Shown in pieces: positions 7,602 to 42,157 of a DNA stretch of 64,000 bases. The translations under genes were made by a program, and so were the position numbers. Position 1 is the stretch's first letter, and every line of letters starts with the position of its first letter. Source of the DNA: Pseudomonadota bacterium (GTDB taxonomy: Bacteria; Pseudomonadota; Gammaproteobacteria; Burkholderiales; JABEVD01); the NCBI GenBank assembly GCA_021848825.1, contig JAJZTQ010000001.1, positions 62,001 to 126,000 of the forward strand. Direction: 5' to 3'. Below the pieces are notes generated by a model. That model was not told the DNA's origin, did no database searches, and was given only the letters and a program-made list of their open reading frames with translations.

Positions 7602-8794
7602 GACCCGATCGTCTCATGGATCCTCGAAATCGCTTTCTCCAGGTTTTCCATGGAAGTCGCGAACGAAAGCCTCATGTAGCCTTCGAGACCGAAAGCCGAA
7701 CCGGGAACCACTGCGACGCCCGCCTTCTCGAGCAGGTATTCGCAGAATGCGATGTCGGTCGCGTCATTGATCCTTCCCTTGCCGTGTAGGGAGGAGATTG
7801 CGCCTCTCGCATCGGCGAAGGCGTAGAATGCGCCTCCCGCAGGAATGCATTTCACGCCGGGGATCTCGTTCAGCTTCTCGACGACGAAAACATGGCGCTT
7901 CCTGAATGCATCGAGCATCGGAGCGATGCAGGACTGGTCCCCGTTCAATGCCGCTTCTGCCGCAACCTGAGAGATCGAAGTGGGGTTGGATGTGCTCTGA
8001 GACTGGACGTTCTCCATCGCCGTGACGATTTCCTCGGGGCCTGCGCAATAGCCTATGCGCCAGCCCGTCATGGAATAGGCTTTCGATACGCCGTTCAATA
8101 CCATGGTCCTGCCGTAGAGATCGGGGCAGGCATTCAGGATGTTGACGAATTTCGTGCCTTCGAGATTGATGTGCTCGTACATGTCGTCGGTCGCGACAAT
8201 TATTTCAGGGTGCTTCCTGAGCACGCTTCCCAGGGCTTCAAGCTCTTCCCTCGTGTAGACTGCGCCGCTCGGATTGCTCGGGCTGTTGATCACGACCATT
8301 TTCGTTTTCTGGGTGATGGCGCCTTCGAGCTGTTCGGGGGTGATCTTGAATCCCTGTTCTATTCCCGCATTCACGATCACCGGCCTGCCTCCCGCGATCA
8401 GAACGATGTCGGGGTAGGAGACCCAGAAGGGCGCGGGGATGACGACTTCGTCGCCATCGTCTATCGTTGCGAGCGCGAGGTTGAAAAAGCTCTGCTTGCC
8501 CCCACATGAAACCAGTATCTGCCTTGCATGGTATTCGAGACCGTTGTCCCGCTTGAATTTTTCCGCTATCGCCTGCTTGAGGCCAGGGGTTCCGCCCACC
8601 GCGGTGTATTTGGTGAAGCCGCGCCTTATCGCCTCTATCGCGGCATCCTTGATATGCTGAGGGGTGTCGAAGTCGGGTTCGCCTGCGCCCAGGCCGATGA
8701 TGTCACGGCCCTCCGCCTTCAATCTGGCTGCTTTTGCCGTCACGGCAAGCGTTGGGGAAGGTTTGATGGCCTTGACGCGGGTCGAGAGTTTCAC
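7598..8794 (-). CDS. aspC: aspartate aminotransferase-type PLP enzyme (class I)
   Basis: The 398-residue protein is a fold-type I aminotransferase of the Ib aspartate/prephenate aminotransferase type, transferring the amino group between aspartate and 2-oxoglutarate. Visible signatures are GLGAGEPDFDTP near the N-terminus, NSPSNPSGAVY around the PLP ring, and KAYSMTGWRIGY with the PLP-binding Lys. I choose GTG 8794, with GAGG six bases upstream; the longer TTG start adds only four residues. The gene is divergent from uvrB with about 50 bases between. Related enzymes can also act on prephenate or aromatic amino acids, so the symbol is provisional. Confidence 0.9.
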   Translation of the reverse strand: MKLSTRVKAIKPSPTLAVTAKAARLKAEGRDIIGLGAGEPDFDTPQHIKDAAIEAIRRGFTKYTAVGGTPGLKQAIAEKFKRDNGLEYHARQILVSCGGKQSFFNLALATIDDGDEVVIPAPFWVSYPDIVLIAGGRPVIVNAGIEQGFKITPEQLEGAITQKTKMVVINSPSNPSGAVYTREELEALGSVLRKHPEIIVATDDMYEHINLEGTKFVNILNACPDLYGRTMVLNGVSKAYSMTGWRIGYCAGPEEIVTAMENVQSQSTSNPTSISQVAAEAALNGDQSCIAPMLDAFRKRHVFVVEKLNEIPGVKCIPAGGAFYAFADARGAISSLHGKGRINDATDIAFCEYLLEKAGVAVVPGSAFGLEGYMRLSFATSMENLEKAISRIHETIGS

Positions 8795-8844
8795 GGTGAT
8801 CCTCAAATGTTAGAATTGCCCTTTGTTGCCTTTGAATTATACCG

Positions 8845-10842
8845 ATGATCGTCACTTTCCCCAATAGCGCCTACCGCCTTCACCAGCCCTTTGCGCCATC
8901 CGGCGACCAGCCCGAGGCGATAGAAAAACTGGTCGAGGGCGTGAATTCAGGGATGCGCTTCCAGACCCTGCTGGGCGTGACAGGCTCAGGCAAGACCTAC
9001 ACCATGGCGAACGTCATCGCGAGGCTCGGGCGTCCCGCCATCATCATGGCGCCGAACAAGACGCTTGCGGCGCAGCTCTATTCGGAAATGCGCGATTTTC
9101 TCCCCGAGAATGCGGTTGAATATTTCGTATCGTATTACGACTATTACCAGCCGGAAGCCTATGTTCCGTCCCGGGACCTCTTTATAGAAAAGGATTCCTC
9201 GATCAACGAGCATATCGAGCAGATGAGGCTTTCCGCCACGAAATCGCTGCTGGAGCGTCCCGACTGCGTGATCGTCGCGACGGTTTCCTCAATCTACGGC
9301 ATTGGAGACCCTGTCGACTATCACGGCATGATTCTCCACCTGAGGGAAAGCGAGAAGGTTTCCCAGAGGGAGGCATTGCAGAGGCTGGTTGCGATGCAGT
9401 ACGAGCGCAACGACGTGGAATTCAGGCGAGGGGTTTTCAGGTCCAGAGGCGACATCCTCGACATCTTCCCCGCGGAAAGCAGCGAACTCGCGCTGCGTGT
9501 CAGCTTCTTCGACGATGTCGTCGAATCGCTTTCGCTTTTCGATCCCCTCACCGGCCACGTGAAGCAGAAAGTCTCGCGATTCACGGTCTATCCTTCCAGC
9601 CATTACGTCACCCCGAGGAGCACGACGCTGCGCGCGATAGAGGCCATCAAGAGCGAGCTCAGGGAAAGGGTCAGGTTTTACCAGAAGGAAAACAAGCTGG
9701 TCGAAGCCCAGAGGATAGAGCAGAGAACGCTTTTCGATCTCGAAATGCTGAACGAGCTGGGATTCTGCAAGGGCATCGAAAACTATTCCAGGCATCTCTC
9801 CGGAAGAAATCCCGGCGATCCGCCTCCGACCCTGATCGATTACCTTCCTCCCGATGCGCTGATGATCGTCGACGAGAGCCATGTCACCATTCCCCAGATA
9901 GGCGGCATGTACAAGGGGGACAGGTCGAGGAAGGAGAATCTCGTCGAATACGGCTTCAGGCTTCCCTCCGCGCTCGACAACAGGCCCTTGCGCTTCGACG
10001 AGTTCGAAAAAGTGATGAGGCAGACCATTTTCGTCTCGGCAACGCCTGCCGATTACGAGGGGAGGCACCAGCAGCAGGTTGTGGAGCAGGTGATCAGGCC
10101 GACCGGGCTTGTCGACCCCATCCTCGAGGTGAAACCTGCTTCGACGCAGGTCGACGACCTGATGTCGGAAGTCAGGCAATGCGTGGACCGGAACGAAAGA
10201 GTGCTCGTCACCACGCTCACGAAGCGCATGGCGGAAGATCTCACGGATTATTTCTCGGACCATGGCATCAAGGTCAGGTATCTCCATTCGGACATCGGGA
10301 CGGTCGAGCGCGTCGAGATCATCAGGGATCTGAGGCTCGGGGTATTCGATGTGCTGGTGGGGATCAACCTGCTGAGGGAAGGGCTGGATATTCCGGAAGT
10401 GTCCCTCGTCGCGATACTCGATGCCGACAAGGAAGGCTTCCTGAGGTCGGAGCGCTCCCTGATCCAGACGGTAGGGCGAGCGGCGCGGCATGCAGGTGGG
10501 CGAGCCATCCTCTATGCGGATGTCATGACAGGATCGATGCAGCGCGCGATTGCGGAAACGGAGAGAAGGAGAAGAAAGCAGATCGCCTACAACGAGGCGC
10601 ACGGCATCGTTCCTGTCGGCGTATCGAAAGCGATCAGGGACATGATAGACGGCGTTTACGAGGAGCAGGCGCCGACCGGACAGGAAAAATACCTTTCCAT
10701 GAGCGAGGAAGCGCTCTCGAAGGAGATCAGGCGTCTGGAGAAGGAGATGCTTGCCGCCGCCAAGAACCTGGAATTCGAGAAAGCCGCAGCCCTCAGGGAC
10801 GAACTCCACGCCCTTCAGAAGCAGGTGTTCGGCGGCGCCTGA
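8845..10842 (+). CDS. uvrB: excinuclease ABC subunit B
   Basis: UvrB is the helicase-like damage-verification subunit of nucleotide excision repair. The 665-residue product has normal family length. It has the Walker [11 protein letters not shown] (about 44-53), the beta-hairpin region [15 protein letters not shown], helicase motifs including [21 protein letters not shown] and QTVGRAARH, and a C-terminal UVR domain around the last 35 residues that contacts UvrC. No LexA-type box is apparent in the short divergent gap upstream. The 3' end overlaps the convergent neighbour by 28 bases. Confidence 0.98.
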
Positions 10843-35451: not shown

Positions 35452-35528
<77 letters not shown>

Positions 35529-35594: not shown

Positions 35595-35624
35595 AAAAAG
35601 TGCCCCACAAAGTGCCCCACAAAA
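35595..35624 (+). repeat. tandem 12-bp GTGCCCCACAAA repeat, left copy (putative arm site)
   Basis: Two adjacent copies of GTGCCCCACAAA preceded by AAAAA. The whole 30-bp block is repeated exactly at 41956-41985 near the other end, in the same orientation. The pairing near the two att sites suggests arm-type integrase sites. Confidence 0.75.
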
Positions 35625-35864
35625 CCGGATGCTAGGGGGTGAATCGGGAAACTGATTTCAGAAATTTTGTGGAAATGAAAATTTGTGCATGGGCACGGTC
35701 TAGGAATTGACGCGCTCTAAGGATTGAAGCCCCCCATATATCAGGAGCGCGCAGGCTTCATTTTGGGATGTAAATTATCAGCCTAATTTGTCCGATACAC
35801 AGCAGGCACTTCAGGAGCATAATATTCGCTTGTAGCCGGCCGATTGAAAAATCCTGGGAAAAAT

Positions 35865-36707
35865 ATGTCTAGCTTACGCACGCTTGCGAACTATAGAAAC
35901 CATGTGGAGCAAATAGCCACCCGTTGGCCGGAATTCCTGAATCTGCGTAAAAACCGTTTATGGCTTACAGGGCTTCTCCTAGCATCGACAGTATCATTTG
36001 CTCAGGGTTTTATTGGGATACCTGAAAATTGTCGCGCTCCTATGGCGCATGATATCGAAATGGCATCTATCCCTCAGTTAATGCATGCAAATACTGATGT
36101 ACATATCATAGGGATTGTTCCGGTCGGCAATTCGCACGCGAAGCCAATTGGCGCGGGGTTCTATCGAATCGATTGCGCGATCTCAGTCTGGTGGTCAGAC
36201 GGACATGTTGATGAGAGCTACATCTTCAGCGCGTGGGATGGCCCAAATGGGAGTTTTTCCGGAAGGTATAGTCCTAGCAACTTAGCTAACCACACCTCAT
36301 CAGATAACAGGACTGATAGCGCAACTACGCAGCTGGATCTAGAAGCGTTGGTTCAGCAGGCATCAAACGCTGCGAACGTTAAGCAAGGTATTAAGCATAT
36401 TCAAATTGAGAAAAACAGCTTGGGTTATCAAATCATTATTGATTATGCCCCGAAATTCTTTGTCAACGAATGGGAAGGACGAGAACAGGCGTTTGCGAAC
36501 AGCGATACTTACCATTTGGCAGAATCTTTTGTGCAATTGCTCGTTAAGCATGGACTCGACCCAGCCACGCCCGGGAATTCCGTTCTGGTATGCGCTAGGG
36601 AAGGCGGGATTATTTCCATAACTGGCAAGCCACAGTTCAAAGACTTGGGCTGTTCCTGGTATGACCCGATGAAAGATGCTGTCACGCTAAACAATAAATT
36701 CAATTAG
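35865..36707 (+). CDS. unknown exported or membrane-anchored cargo protein
   Basis: I do not recognise this 280-residue protein. It has a basic N-terminal stretch and one hydrophobic segment (about residues 35-52, RLWLTGLLLASTVSFAQG) that could be a signal peptide or an N-in anchor, then a polar domain. Four Cys (ENCRAP, RIDCAIS, VLVCARE, LGCSWY) could form two disulfides in the periplasm. The ATG at 35865 has a GGGAA site; an earlier TTG would add seven residues. It stands alone at the left edge, converges on the replication operon and is followed by a terminator at 36951. Cargo position suggests a fitness or defence role, unproven. Confidence 0.75.
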   Translation: MSSLRTLANYRNHVEQIATRWPEFLNLRKNRLWLTGLLLASTVSFAQGFIGIPENCRAPMAHDIEMASIPQLMHANTDVHIIGIVPVGNSHAKPIGAGFYRIDCAISVWWSDGHVDESYIFSAWDGPNGSFSGRYSPSNLANHTSSDNRTDSATTQLDLEALVQQASNAANVKQGIKHIQIEKNSLGYQIIIDYAPKFFVNEWEGREQAFANSDTYHLAESFVQLLVKHGLDPATPGNSVLVCAREGGIISITGKPQFKDLGCSWYDPMKDAVTLNNKFN

Positions 36708-37424: not shown

Positions 37425-37793
37425 TCATGCCGCAGCCCTCCCGGTCCTCTCAGATTGCTTGACGATTTGCCGGAATGCTTCGAGGTCGCCGGGAAGATCA
37501 GCCGGGGCCATCGATTGTCTAGCCTGAAGAAGCCTTTCGCGGTGCTCTCGGGGATCTCCCCGAAGGTCGCATAGGCGGTTTATAAGGCGGTCGTATTCTT
37601 CCAGGGCAGCAAGGATATCGTCAGCGGAATCTGGACCAAGGAACGCGAGGATTTCTGCCTTGTGCGCCTTGATCGTCGGCAGAAAGCGGTCGAGCGCATC
37701 ATCCGGGCCTTCAACGTCCAGCCGGTCGCCTTCGACTTCGATTTCAATCCCTGCACGAAACATTTCATCGAGCATGATTGATATATGCTTCAT
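37425..37793 (-). CDS. TubC N-terminal docking domain-like small protein
   Basis: The 122-residue protein reads like a TubC_N docking domain in its first half: ISIMLDEMFRAGIEIEVEGDRLDVEGPDDAL, then FLPTIKAHKAEILAFLG. The second half is helical and charged. Such stand-alone TubC_N-like proteins accompany DUF3631/DUF3987 ATPases in mobile elements, where their role is unknown. The ATG overlaps the DUF3631 stop (ATGA). Confidence 0.75.
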   Translation of the reverse strand: MKHISIMLDEMFRAGIEIEVEGDRLDVEGPDDALDRFLPTIKAHKAEILAFLGPDSADDILAALEEYDRLINRLCDLRGDPREHRERLLQARQSMAPADLPGDLEAFRQIVKQSERTGRAAA

Positions 37794-39265
37794 ACCGATA
37801 CCCTCCTTTTTCCCGCTACCGCGCTACCTTCAAGGATTGGTGCGGCTTGCGGGGTAGCGTCATGATTTCCGGTAGCGCTACCTGATGCTTTATCCGCTAC
37901 CTCTCTAACCCGCATGAATGCTTGATCTACCCCAAAAGGTAGCGGAGTAGCGGCATTTTCGGGGGTGTCGTGAGAAGGGGTAAGGTATCGTTTGAAAGCA
38001 TCCTCGAACTGGTCAAGATCGAAACCTTTTTTGACATTCGCAAAACTGATTTTCAGGTCCTTGGATGAAATGCCGTATTCCTTAAGGCGTTTTCCTAGTT
38101 GCCTAGGATTCATCGGCTTGCCACGGTTATAGGTTGCCCACGGAGCTTCATCGTTCTGGACAAGCGCATCCAGCAATTCAGAAGTGGGAAGACGGATTAC
38201 CTTCTTGCTGTCGAAAACCTCCTGAATGTCGGCCAGCAGTTCAGCGGAAAGGCTTAACGCTCCCTGTTCGACTCCCGAAATCTTCAGGGCAGCTTGTCGT
38301 GCATGGTCAGGCCATTTTCCCTTCACATGATCGGCAATAGCCAGCAGCGGTTCCCAATTATCTTGCGCTCGATCATTGAGGGCTTCCGGCAGGTATGGCC
38401 TTGCCTGTTCAATGGTCGGGCCTGCTTCTTCCGCAAATCTTGCCAGCTTTGAGGTCAGCCTATCGAAATGACGTTCTTCAGCATGGCGGAGACGTTGCAC
38501 GGTTTCCCCTGGAAGCTTACGCCTCAGTTCTAGAACGATTGCACGATCCATGATCGTTTCGGGAAGATGTCCTATTCCTGAAATCGCCTTGGCTCCCCAT
38601 GTCGAGAACTGCCTGGGTTCGTGGTCATCACCTACGGTGCGAATGACATAAGCCGATTGCCGTGTATGTCCCGAATTGATGATTCCGCGCAACTCTTCGT
38701 TCTCTTTAAAGAAGGCGTCAGCCTCGTCGATTAGCAGGGTAGGGGAGTGAGCTTCAATGACTCGAAAGGTTGCAGCGGGGGAGATATTCGAGGCTACAAG
38801 GGGCCGCCGTGACAGCTTGCCGATGAGATTCAGAAATTGGCTCTTCCCGCATCTTTTCTCAGGCGCGGTTATGACGGCGAGAGGTGCCACCTGAACATGA
38901 TCTATCATCCAGGTAAACGCAATCCACAATGATGCAGCGGTCGCCGTTTCTGGTTGGCAAATGATATGTCGATGGATGGTCGCCTTGATTTCATCGAGAA
39001 GTTCCGCGCCGTCAACAGGATCAGGCCACGGCCTTATTTCGGGAAACATCGCCGTCTTGCCTTTGGCTTCCTGCTTCTCGTGACGGGCCTTGGAAACTTC
39101 CTTGTCCAGGGTTCCTACACGAACGCCTAAGCGCTCGGCCTCAGATTCGCGGACACGGTCGTATTCCAGTGGGGGAAGTGCGGCAAGCCTGGAAATGTCA
39201 TCTAGTCCGGTTGCTGCCTCGAAGGCTGCCTGGGCTTCTGGGGTTGCGGGCTCATATTGGGTCAT
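37790..39265 (-). CDS. DUF3631 domain ATPase (putative element replication protein)
   Basis: The 491-residue protein has an N-terminal helical part, then a P-loop ATPase core with VITAPEKRCGKSQFL (Walker A) and PTLLIDEADAFFKENEEL (Walker B), HTRQSAYVIRTVG and an arginine-rich IMDRAIVLELRRKLPGE, all typical of DUF3631. The C-terminal third has a helix-turn-helix-like RQLGKRLKEYGI. In mobile elements these ATPases resemble the helicase part of primase-helicase proteins. No primase domain is seen here, so replication would need a partner or host primase. The ATG at 39265 is preferred over the extension into the upstream gene. It overlaps genes on both sides. Confidence 0.85.
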   Translation of the reverse strand: MTQYEPATPEAQAAFEAATGLDDISRLAALPPLEYDRVRESEAERLGVRVGTLDKEVSKARHEKQEAKGKTAMFPEIRPWPDPVDGAELLDEIKATIHRHIICQPETATAASLWIAFTWMIDHVQVAPLAVITAPEKRCGKSQFLNLIGKLSRRPLVASNISPAATFRVIEAHSPTLLIDEADAFFKENEELRGIINSGHTRQSAYVIRTVGDDHEPRQFSTWGAKAISGIGHLPETIMDRAIVLELRRKLPGETVQRLRHAEERHFDRLTSKLARFAEEAGPTIEQARPYLPEALNDRAQDNWEPLLAIADHVKGKWPDHARQAALKISGVEQGALSLSAELLADIQEVFDSKKVIRLPTSELLDALVQNDEAPWATYNRGKPMNPRQLGKRLKEYGISSKDLKISFANVKKGFDLDQFEDAFKRYLTPSHDTPENAATPLPFGVDQAFMRVREVADKASGSATGNHDATPQAAPILEGSAVAGKRRVSV

Positions 39266-39671
39266 GATTGCTCCCGTCAGCAGTTTTGAAGAATCTCGTC
39301 TTGAATCGCCCTTCATCGTCGGGTTCGAGCGGCCAGCCCTGGAGCCTTCGAGGATTGGCCTTGAGGATCACGCGGGCCAGCGATTCGGCAATAAATGCTT
39401 CGTGTGCCCGAAAACCGATCACTACATCCAGCCCCGCAGCGTAGGAGAAATCCAGGCGGTCGAAGTCCGAAATCGGATCAACAACGAGGCGCGGGAAAGC
39501 CCTAGCGAGATTCCAGTCAAAAACGACCATGACCATTTGCTGACGAGGCTGAAGCCCGCGTTTTCTCGCTTCGAGCATTTGCCTCCCGTAGGCTGGGATG
39601 CGAGCGGAGCGGCTTCTCTCTACCATTCTGTCGAGGAATGCCATTCCTCTGTCGGCAGCGCTTTGAATCAT
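39252..39671 (-). CDS. hypothetical element protein, 139 aa
   Basis: The protein begins MIQSAADRGMAFLDRMVER and contains a central MVMVVFDWNLARAFPRLVVD stretch and IGFRAHEAFIAESLARVI. No family recognised. It is coupled on both sides: the ATG overlaps the AlpA stop (ATGA) and the end overlaps the DUF3631 start by 14 bases. Position between AlpA and the ATPase suggests a replication or regulation accessory. Confidence 0.65.
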   Translation of the reverse strand: MIQSAADRGMAFLDRMVERSRSARIPAYGRQMLEARKRGLQPRQQMVMVVFDWNLARAFPRLVVDPISDFDRLDFSYAAGLDVVIGFRAHEAFIAESLARVILKANPRRLQGWPLEPDDEGRFKTRFFKTADGSNHDPI

Positions 39672-39901
39672 GCTGCCTCCCGTCTCGCTGCTTCGAGCTT
39701 GCGCACGAGGTCCCGAATTTCTTCGTCGGATTTTCCGGCAATGCGGGCCTTGATAATGGAGTCGATCTCATGTTCCGGCCAAGCAACAGCACGGCTTCCG
39801 ATAGAAACGGGCTTCGTTATCAGCCCTTCGGAAATCTGGTCGTAAGTCATCGACCGACCCATTCCCATGCGCTGCATTACTTTGGGGAGCCTTAACATCA
39901 T
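39668..39901 (-). CDS. AlpA-family DNA-binding regulator
   Basis: The 77-residue protein has an AlpA/excisionase-type winged helix: MMLRLPKVMQRMGMGRSMTY, then SIGSRAVAWPEHEIDSIIKARIAG. AlpA regulators activate integrase or excision functions in P4-like elements and CP4-57. The ATG at 39901 follows AAGGAG by seven bases. It is the first gene of the leftward operon and lies only 18 bases past the last of three consecutive terminators. Confidence 0.88.
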   Translation of the reverse strand: MMLRLPKVMQRMGMGRSMTYDQISEGLITKPVSIGSRAVAWPEHEIDSIIKARIAGKSDEEIRDLVRKLEAARREAA

Positions 39902-39920
39902 AATATTCTCCTTACAAATG

Positions 39921-39943
39921 AAAAAGCCCACTGTCGTGGGCGT
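39921..39943 (-). terminator. terminator 3 of triple array before alpA
   Basis: On the minus strand GCCCAC-GACA-GTGGGC is followed by TTTTT, 18 bases before the alpA ATG. Confidence 0.75.
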
Positions 39944-39947
39944 AAAG

Positions 39948-40017
39948 TCCGGGCGAAAAAAAACCCGCAGGAGCGGGTTTCATTTGTTCCGGGCGAAAAA
40001 AAACCCGCAGGGGCGGG
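39948..40017. repeat. two 30-bp direct repeats (40-bp period) holding terminators
   Basis: Units at 39948-39977 and 39988-40017 share TCCGGGCGAAAAAAAACCCG and then CAGGRGCGGG, with one mismatch. On the minus strand each forms a hairpin followed by T8. Confidence 0.85.
39953..39980 (-). terminator. terminator 2 of triple array before alpA
   Basis: On the minus strand AACCCGC-TCCT-GCGGGTT is followed by a run of T. It belongs to a 30-bp unit repeated 40 bases upstream. Confidence 0.8.
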
Positions 40018-40019
40018 CC
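39993..40019 (-). terminator. terminator 1 of triple array before alpA
   Basis: On the minus strand CCCGCC-CCT-GCGGG is followed by eight T. It is the second copy of the same 30-bp unit. Confidence 0.78.
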
Positions 40020-40536
40020 TCGTTCACTTCGGACGCATCTTCCCCGTATAAACGGGGGCATCCAGCATGCCTTGTTACTAATTTTGCACGATGCTGCCGT
40101 TGCGTTTCATCGGCTAAGCTATGCAAGCTTGTTTCGAGTTACTTCAAATTTCGGGCGAACACGGGCATCAAACAGCCCCGCTTATGCTCTAAATTTGGTA
40201 GTGCGGATTGGTAATCATTGACCTTCCAATTCTTCCGGGCATGACCAAGCAGCCATTAGGCTGCATGTCCTCCGATGTTCCGGGTGCTCGTCGATAGACG
40301 GATCAAATTGTATGGGCGCAACAATACCGCTGAGGAAAATTTATACCCTCTTTCTCGGACGAGTTCAAGCTTTTTTGGATGAAGGCGGATTTCAGGGCGA
40401 GCAGGGCTATCAATTTGCTTCGACTTAGCCGCTCGTGCGGGTTCTCGCCGTGCTGCCCGAAAGTGACGCGGACGTTCAGGGACTTCCGCACCACCTTTAT
40501 ACCATGATCTGGATTTCAGATCAAACGTCTAGGAAC
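40018..40536 (-). other. gap between integrase end and alpA leader; one weak ORF
   Basis: This 520-base stretch must contain the alpA operon promoter. A minus-strand ORF at 40303-40494 starts at GTG after AAAGGTG and gives 63 residues (VRKSLNVRVTFGQHG at the start), with no family likeness. An excisionase-like gene would be expected near here but I cannot find one. The short inverted repeat CCCCGTATAAACGGGG lies at about 40040-40055. Confidence 0.35.
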
Positions 40537-41871
40537 CTAGGCGGACTTCCTCGGCAAGGTGATGACATTGTTGGCGGTCGCGTTCAGCAGTAGTTCGAGA
40601 CGATCCCCGAGAAGTCGCCAGGCCTCGCGCTTTTCGTTGTCATAGGCATGATGCTGATAGGTTCGCAATACCCGGTTCTGCTCGGTATGGTTCAGGCATT
40701 TTTCGACCACGGCAGGAAGAATGCCTAGACGTGCCATCATTGTTGCGCCTGTCCTCCTGAGGTCATGGGGTGTCCATTCTCCCCCAGAAAGCTTGAGCGC
40801 TTCCGGTGCGCTGCTTCTGTTCGACAATGCCTTGCCGCGCTGCCTATCACGGATTTGTACGGTAATGGTTTTCGGACAGACTGCCTTTGTTCCGGTGCGG
40901 TCTGGATAGCACCATTCGCTTGCTCCGTTGATCTCCTTCAGCTTCCTGAATTTGCCGATTGCGAAGGCGGAAAGATAAACGTCATGGGCCTTTCCGTTCT
41001 TCGAGTTTCCTTCAGGAATCCGCCATGTCGAATTATCGAAATCGACATGGTCCCATTTCGCGGAAAGAATTTCCCCGATTCGGCAGCAGGTCGAAAGCTG
41101 AATCCATAACGCAAGCTCGGTAGAATGGAGGAATCGGCCATTGGGGAGCTTGTCGCGCAATTCCTTGATCTCGGATTCCGAAAGAATGCGGTCGCGCTCG
41201 GTATCCTTTCCGCCGATACGGGATTTCTCTATCTTTGCTGTAGGATCAGACTCGATAATTTCGCGCATTTCCGCAAATCTGAACATCTGGCGCATGTCGG
41301 CAAGAGTGCGCTTCGCCATCCTTCCTACACCACGAGAGAGAAGGGCATCCAGTACGGCCATGACGTGAGACTTCTTCACGTCCTCCACGGCGAGCTTGCC
41401 GATCTTCGGCAATACGTCCTTTGCAAATGCTCTCCTGATTTCAGCCCCGCCGTCCTTCCGCTTCTTCAAGTCGATTGCCGCCCAATCTTCGAAAAGCTGC
41501 GAAACCGTTTTTCGTGCCGCTTGCGCTTCGGCATCTGCAAGACGCTTTTCTTGAGTCGCCAGCTTTTGGGCCTGGTCTGCTCGTTTTTCGGTCTTGCTGA
41601 TAGCTTTGTCGTGGCCTGGGTCTTTCCCATTCACTACGGTCAAAGCCGCCTTCGCTCGATTTTCCCTGATGGATTTCAAGCTGTCTGTCGGCCAGGTTCC
41701 GCAGGTGAAGTCCTTGGTCTTGCCGTCGAATCGATAGCGCCAGCGGAAAAGAACGGTGATTCCCTTCGATGTAGTCCGCACAGTTCCGATCAGGCTTTCC
41801 CCATCCCTGAGACGCTTTCCGGCATCCTCTATGGCGAGGGCTTCAAGTTCCTTTGTGGTCAGTTTCGGCAT
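40537..41871 (-). CDS. tyrosine integrase, P4-type
   Basis: The 444-residue protein has the N-terminal DUF4102 (arm-binding) domain (KGITVLFRWRYRFDGKTKDFTCG), a core-binding domain and the catalytic domain. The catalytic residues are Arg in STCCRIGEILSAKW, H-x-L-R in TPHDLRRTGATMMARLG, then CLNHTEQN and the Tyr nucleophile in LRTYQHHAY. The usual LGH is LNH here. The ATG at 41871 follows GGAGG by nine bases. It is at the right end of the element, reading inward, 240 bases from attR, as expected for a tRNA-targeting element. Confidence 0.93.
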   Translation of the reverse strand: MPKLTTKELEALAIEDAGKRLRDGESLIGTVRTTSKGITVLFRWRYRFDGKTKDFTCGTWPTDSLKSIRENRAKAALTVVNGKDPGHDKAISKTEKRADQAQKLATQEKRLADAEAQAARKTVSQLFEDWAAIDLKKRKDGGAEIRRAFAKDVLPKIGKLAVEDVKKSHVMAVLDALLSRGVGRMAKRTLADMRQMFRFAEMREIIESDPTAKIEKSRIGGKDTERDRILSESEIKELRDKLPNGRFLHSTELALWIQLSTCCRIGEILSAKWDHVDFDNSTWRIPEGNSKNGKAHDVYLSAFAIGKFRKLKEINGASEWCYPDRTGTKAVCPKTITVQIRDRQRGKALSNRSSAPEALKLSGGEWTPHDLRRTGATMMARLGILPAVVEKCLNHTEQNRVLRTYQHHAYDNEKREAWRLLGDRLELLLNATANNVITLPRKSA

Positions 41872-41955
41872 TTCCAGCATCCTCCCATCACTTGTATGAG
41901 TTCCGCCCACCACTTTGCAAGGGCATTTCCTATCACTTGTATCGGGGTGAGTCTG

Positions 41956-41985
41956 AAAAAGTGCCCCACAAAGTGCCCCACAAAA
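41956..41985 (+). repeat. tandem 12-bp GTGCCCCACAAA repeat, right copy (putative arm site)
   Basis: The 30-bp block is identical to 35595-35624, in the same orientation, lying between the integrase start and attR. It overlaps the expected integrase promoter, so integrase could also repress its own gene. Confidence 0.75.
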
Positions 41986-42109
41986 TTTTCGGCTTCAGAA
42001 AAATTGTACCGGACGGCTTTGGACGATGCAAACAAAAGAATGCTTATTAATTAAATTGTTATAGGCGATATTCTGGATTTTATCGGATTGCAAAAAATCG
42101 TGATTTTCC

Positions 42110-42157
42110 TGCATGGGGTGCAAGTGATAGGAGGTTCAAATCCTCTCGCCCCGACCA
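42110..42157 (+). repeat. attR: 48-bp copy of tRNA-Pro 3' half
   Basis: Covers the anticodon loop to CCA of tRNA-Pro with two mismatches to attL. No D arm or acceptor 5' strand precedes it, so it is not a tRNA gene. Confidence 0.9.

Follow-up and report, generated by a model that had tools for sequence, protein, structure and literature searches.

The window, a 64-kb stretch of DNA, contains a 6.6-kb element that is integrated at tRNA-Pro and has a 48-bp direct repeat at either end. One of these att repeats is the 3' end of tRNA-Pro (35481..35528, plus strand), and the copy at the other element end (42110..42157, plus strand) is 96% identical to it. The element codes for a tyrosine integrase, AlpA, a 139-aa protein, a DUF3631 protein, a TubC_N protein and small ORFs. 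The 77-aa product of alpA (39668..39901, minus strand) belongs to the family Phage_AlpA (PF05930, E 2e-11); the antiterminator called AlpA in P. aeruginosa belongs to a different protein family. The stop of alpA is overlapped, as in an operon, by the gene for the 139-aa protein (39252..39671, minus strand), to which no family could be assigned, and the 508-aa DUF3631 protein (37790..39316, minus strand) is the replication-type gene product of the element. The integrase gene int (40537..41913, minus strand) is codirectional with alpA and lies upstream of the alpA leader. A cargo gene for a 287-aa protein without a Pfam or PHROG match (35844-36707, plus strand) is located between the tRNA-side att repeat and the operon. 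Direct repeats of GTGCCCCAC at 35595-35624 and 41944-41997, near both element ends, are likely integrase arm-binding sites. The host genome has a second AlpA-family gene outside the window (G000:C37:8898-9056).

Positions 39921-40019 directly upstream of alpA are filled on the minus strand by three intrinsic terminators, all of them strong. T1 (39996..40018) consists of the hairpin GCCCGCCCCTGCGGGT (40018-40003) and a TTTTTTT tract to 39996, T2 (39956..39980) of the hairpin AAACCCGCTCCTGCGGGTTT (39980-39961) and a TTTTT tract to 39956, and T3 (39921..39941) of the hairpin GCCCACGACAGTGGGC (39941-39926) and a TTTTT tract to 39921, directly 5' of the alpA Shine-Dalgarno sequence (SD). T1 and T2 are parts of a 40-bp tandem duplication (39948..40027, minus strand), the units of which (39988-40027 and 39948-39987) are 83% identical. 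An earlier note on this DNA had described three minus-strand hairpins with T-tracts in a row, two of them in a 40-bp-spaced duplicated unit, and both descriptions proved correct. It had also placed the last terminator next to the alpA start, which holds, at a distance of 18 nt, which does not: 19 nt, including the SD AAGGAG, separate the end of the T3 tract at 39921 from the ATG at 39901.

The background was determined with a dedicated scan in 464 kb of the host genome (the window and a further 400 kb). It found 96 terminators, 93 single ones and T1-T3, which form the sole cluster of two or more; the order-1 Markov control gave 41 terminators, all single. By d'Aubenton-Carafa score, T1 and T3 were at the 95th percentile of the 96 and T2 at the 83rd, and the 151-nt stretch with the array folded with z = -4.0 relative to shuffled sequences. 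A generic terminator scan listed T3, placed T2 on the plus strand and missed T1. We conclude that the array of three terminators is real and far beyond chance. T2 and T3 are flanked by the arms (39914-39923 and 39978-39987) of a perfect 10-bp inverted repeat, ACAAATGAAA / TTTCATTTGT (39914..39987). The downstream arm touches the alpA SD. Binding of AlpA at this repeat was considered and rejected; there are no more copies in the element at up to one mismatch.

T1 and T2 each hold GCGGG-T8-CGCCCGGA, the core of a terminator-RBS cassette of tailed phages, a feature that the earlier note missed. The full core GCGGGTTTTTTTTCGCCCGGA is present at 39988..40008 (T1, minus strand), where it is followed by ACAA-ATG, and at 39948..39968 (T2, minus strand), and the pattern GCGGG-T7-NYGCCYGGA behind a GC hairpin is matched exactly in both. 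The T1 copy reads GGAA with an ATG 7 nt further on (23-codon ORF); the T2 copy has no such start. At alpA itself the arrangement is GGAG-10 nt-ATG behind T3, and T3 lacks the YGCC spacer. The two copies of GCGGGTTTTTTTTCGCCCGGA in the array are the only ones in the 2.74-Mb host genome, even with one mismatch allowed.

In tailed phages the cassette reads GCGGG-T7-NYGCCYGGAG with an ATG 8-12 nt further on, and it stands directly before tail genes. The 20-mer CGGGTTTTTTTTCGCCCGGA had an exact match in 36 viral contigs, in most cases immediately in front of a large tail gene and continuing GAGAAA...ATG. The relaxed cassette GCGGG-T7-NYGCCYGGAG gave at least 120 matches in the viral-contig search, and the control with a permuted spacer gave none in the same search. 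Cassette-bearing IMG/VR contigs include L278, L284, L289, L292, L304, L325 and L369, and the consensus after T7 is ATGCCCGGAGAAAA. Among the matches listed, 150 of 161 distinct viral sites are followed by an ORF start no more than 60 nt away, mostly 8-12 nt from GGAG, and at 94 of 109 usable viral sites (86%) a codirectional ORF ends at most 50 nt upstream or overlaps. Since the cassette thus lies between codirectional genes, it is intra-operonic, and transcription of the gene behind it requires either readthrough or a polymerase that resists terminators. All ten representatives of the downstream proteins matched tail families: four tape measure groups, sheath, baseplate hub, J-like tail protein, tail assembly, tail fibre and minor tail. 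That one specific cassette recurs in front of unrelated tail genes in many phages points to a shared means of setting or gating the levels of tail proteins. In a limited search of open-access papers we found no published account of it.

An exact copy of the 20-mer CGGGTTTTTTTTCGCCCGGA was lacking in all 398 other genomes searched within the order. Given the much greater size of the viral collection, this absence alone does not prove enrichment in phages; the enrichment follows from the position before tail genes together with the permuted control. Tandem cassettes are rare in phages (2 of the 52 sites of a tandem-pattern search); doubles exist, and L369 has a triple before a sheath-like gene. 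The matching core shows, at the level of sequence, that T1 and T2 carry near-exact copies of this cassette. A common core is not proof of common descent, as the stem and the spacer could converge.

Promoter candidates on the alpA strand were obtained with a weight-matrix scan, in which scores are expressed as occurrence per kb per strand. Two candidates ranked clearly first, 310-470 nt upstream of T1: P1 (TTGATC-17-TATAAA with an extended -10 TG; 40496..40524, minus strand; transcription start site (TSS) ~40489), the score of which is equalled once per 21 kb per strand, and P2 (TTGAAC-17-TATAAA; 40340..40368, minus strand; TSS ~40333), equalled once per 6.7 kb per strand. No good promoter was predicted downstream of T1. 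If P1 or P2 serves alpA, all three terminators are within the transcript. Because the interval from T3 to alpA is too short for a normal promoter, and because the best two matches are upstream, transcripts into alpA probably pass T1-T3. The predicted promoter positions thus support, as probable, the statement of the earlier note that transcripts entering from upstream have to pass all three. The dyad TGATCTGAAATCCAGATCA (TGATCTG-AAATC-CAGATCA; 40505-40523), just after the int stop, covers the -35 region and the spacer of P1 and is a possible operator; it had no exact match in viral contigs.

The terminators might instead be pure insulation that only blocks readthrough from int and the leader, with an alpA promoter that overlaps T3. 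The candidate for such a promoter is TTTACG-17-TTTCAT within the array (39918..39946, minus strand), and its TSS at ~39911 would keep the SD in the mRNA. However, a match of this quality occurs once per 1.1 kb per strand, which is near background, and two far better promoters are predicted upstream; in addition, the cassette in phages is normally inside operons, where transcripts must cross it. The gene order speaks for insulation, since int is upstream of and codirectional with alpA here as in 76 of 90 int-alpA pairings of related loci. The same applies to a Geobacteraceae group with the same DUF3631 family, in which one strong terminator, unrelated in its sequence (GGCCATTACC...GGTAATGGCC), is placed between int and alpA. 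Judged by its sequence, this terminator is an independent case at the int-alpA position. Taken together, we regard insulation as a tentative and rather unlikely explanation of the array. This terminator between int and alpA was seen in DUF3631 elements of Geobacteraceae and at related loci (L076, L077, L080, L081, L084, L087, L095, L100, L101 and L102).

To place the array among other alpA genes, 139 AlpA leaders from genomes and viral contigs, including this one, were compared with the leaders of 369 other genes for terminators within 170 nt upstream. Terminators were no commoner before alpA (22/139) than before the other genes (59/369), and none of the other AlpA leaders had a three-terminator array. 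The earlier note had suggested looking for this array in front of alpA in related elements; it was not conserved, either at DUF3631/AlpA loci or in the 139 leaders. DNA relatives of the leader were found neither in eight other genomes of the genus nor in plasmids, and 398 genomes of the order gave only short, terminator-sized matches.

A 49-codon upstream ORF (39912..40061, minus strand) spans T1-T3, and its stop TAA overlaps the alpA SD. A ribosome translating it (from 40061 to 39912) could prevent T1-T3 from forming and be handed over to alpA, that is, translation-coupled attenuation, for which the coverage of all three hairpins and the position of the stop would be well suited. But the ORF is not significant, as 3% (all shuffled) to 13% (array fixed) of controls had a comparable one by chance. 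In addition, the 40-bp length of the duplication is not divisible by three, which puts the two units in different frames, and no relatives of the leader were found in which codon conservation could be compared. We therefore consider such attenuation very improbable.

The earlier note had further suggested an RNA-based immunity switch as in phage P4. Such a P4/IsrK-type switch would control termination or translation of the alpA mRNA by a small leader RNA ending at T1 or by an antisense C4-like RNA. Several properties of the leader are compatible with this. The best Rfam match of the leader, comprising hairpins and a terminator, is isrK (22.4 bits), and the same family matches the P4 leader. 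A leader segment at 40429..40443 (minus strand), present in P1 but not in P2 transcripts, is complementary to T2 at 14 of 15 positions, which was equalled in 5 of 1000 shuffles and in none of 272 real chunks and is possibly chance. A stable hairpin (40031..40069, minus strand; z = -2.75) lies just 5' of T1, and the P1 leader as a whole folds better than shuffled sequences (z = -3.65). However, the P2 leader alone is not unusual (z = -1.56), and T1-T3 stay formed in the minimum-energy fold of the leader. The isrK score is far below the gathering threshold of 50 bits, two places in the same genome score better, and in 13 of 14 control genomes the search gave matches as well. For C4 there was no match at E ≤ 10 in the leader and none in the window, and the best in the genome (14.7 bits) is on another contig. 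Phage P4, used as the positive control, gave 74.9 bits for C4, 60.8 for isrK and 44.1 for c4-a1b1 in its leader. Moreover, the AlpA homologue vis (8764-9030) of P4 is upstream of the C4/isrK RNA leader, whereas here the leader is upstream of alpA. With no C4, an insignificant and unspecific isrK match and the opposite position of the leader relative to the AlpA homologue, a P4-type immunity switch is not supported at this locus, and we judge an RNA switch of this kind to be improbable; some looser form of RNA control is conceivable.

We favor, with a probability of roughly 0.6, the explanation that the array, situated in the 5' leader of the alpA operon, works as a serial throttle on transcription, and that T1-T3 probably hold alpA nearly silent instead of serving as an immunity switch of the P4 type. 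We infer this function, and likewise the use of P1 and P2 and the strength of termination in vivo, from the features described above. A tail-gene terminator-RBS cassette may have been tandemly duplicated, followed by fusion of a third terminator to the ribosome site of alpA. Transcripts from P1, P2 and int would mostly be halted at T1-T3, as three terminators in series would let very little pass, so that expression of AlpA and of the downstream DUF3631 operon would depend entirely on rare readthrough or on a terminator-resistant polymerase. AlpA would be the excisionase or activator, and the polymerase may be made terminator-resistant, for example, by an antitermination factor of a helper phage. 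Such control would hold tightly off a gene that, when over-expressed, triggers excision and is harmful to the host. The throttle is supported by the high scores of the triple array, its uniqueness in 464 kb, the position of good promoters exclusively upstream of T1, and the presence in T1 and T2 of a core that in phages lies inside operons before tail genes. Counting against it, the array is not conserved, and a simple scan of the leader found no nut/boxA-like site (boxA-like sequences appeared only at two mismatches).

By analogy, the throttle fits the known behavior of AlpA in EcCICFT073 and in PICMI. In EcCICFT073, a PICI of E. coli, over-expression of alpA leads to uncontrolled replication and affects viability, and alpA expression depends on the helper phage (PMC6092414); in PICMI, over-expression of alpA triggers excision without a phage (PMC10803314). 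The PICI study (PMC6092414) did not settle by what means helper phages switch alpA on in Gram-negative satellites, and an alpA gene behind stacked phage-type terminators would offer a concrete route, with control at termination instead of initiation. That the gate is opened by helper-phage antitermination is speculative. A still more specific version, in which alpA is a helper-phage sensor because host polymerase is blocked and polymerase carrying a phage late antitermination factor passes, appears unlikely to us; if true, the element would excise and replicate only once the helper reaches its late programme.

Among the closest known systems are the tailed-phage terminator-RBS cassettes from IMG/VR (e.g., L278, L284, L289 and L369), with the same GC hairpin, T7-8 and spacer YGCCYGGA. 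These are intra-operonic, a few nt before a start codon, and known also as doubles and as one triple array, stacked as here. Unlike them, the array combines two tandem copies with a third, unrelated hairpin, and the gene that it precedes is a regulatory one in a small integrated element. Both copies have lost the G after GGA, and of the three terminators T3 alone stands at a real start, that of alpA. The P4 immunity region (CI RNA, alpha operon leader) is similar in that a leader with a terminator precedes a satellite-type replication operon, but it differs by its C4-type RNA, by a significant isrK match and by the place of the leader, which here is upstream of the AlpA homologue with three intrinsic terminators adjoining the start codon. 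In isrK-orf45-anrP of Gifsy-1 (PMC4825925), a terminator near the beginning of a prophage transcript is likewise partly read through into a regulatory gene; here, in contrast, the IsrK match is not significant, the terminators are stacked, and no AntQ-like gene was recognised in the element. PICMI are defined by an integrase, AlpA and a DUF3987/DUF5906 primase at the fis locus (PMC10803314). With its DUF3631 protein in place of this primase and its tRNA-Pro site, the element is not a PICMI satellite, and a helper for it is hypothetical. It nevertheless resembles PICMI and Gram-negative PICI as a small integrated element with an integrase, AlpA and a replication-type gene, and its gene order alpA-X-(DUF3631) matches their layout, in which alpA is the helper-induced activator (PMC10803314, PMC6092414).
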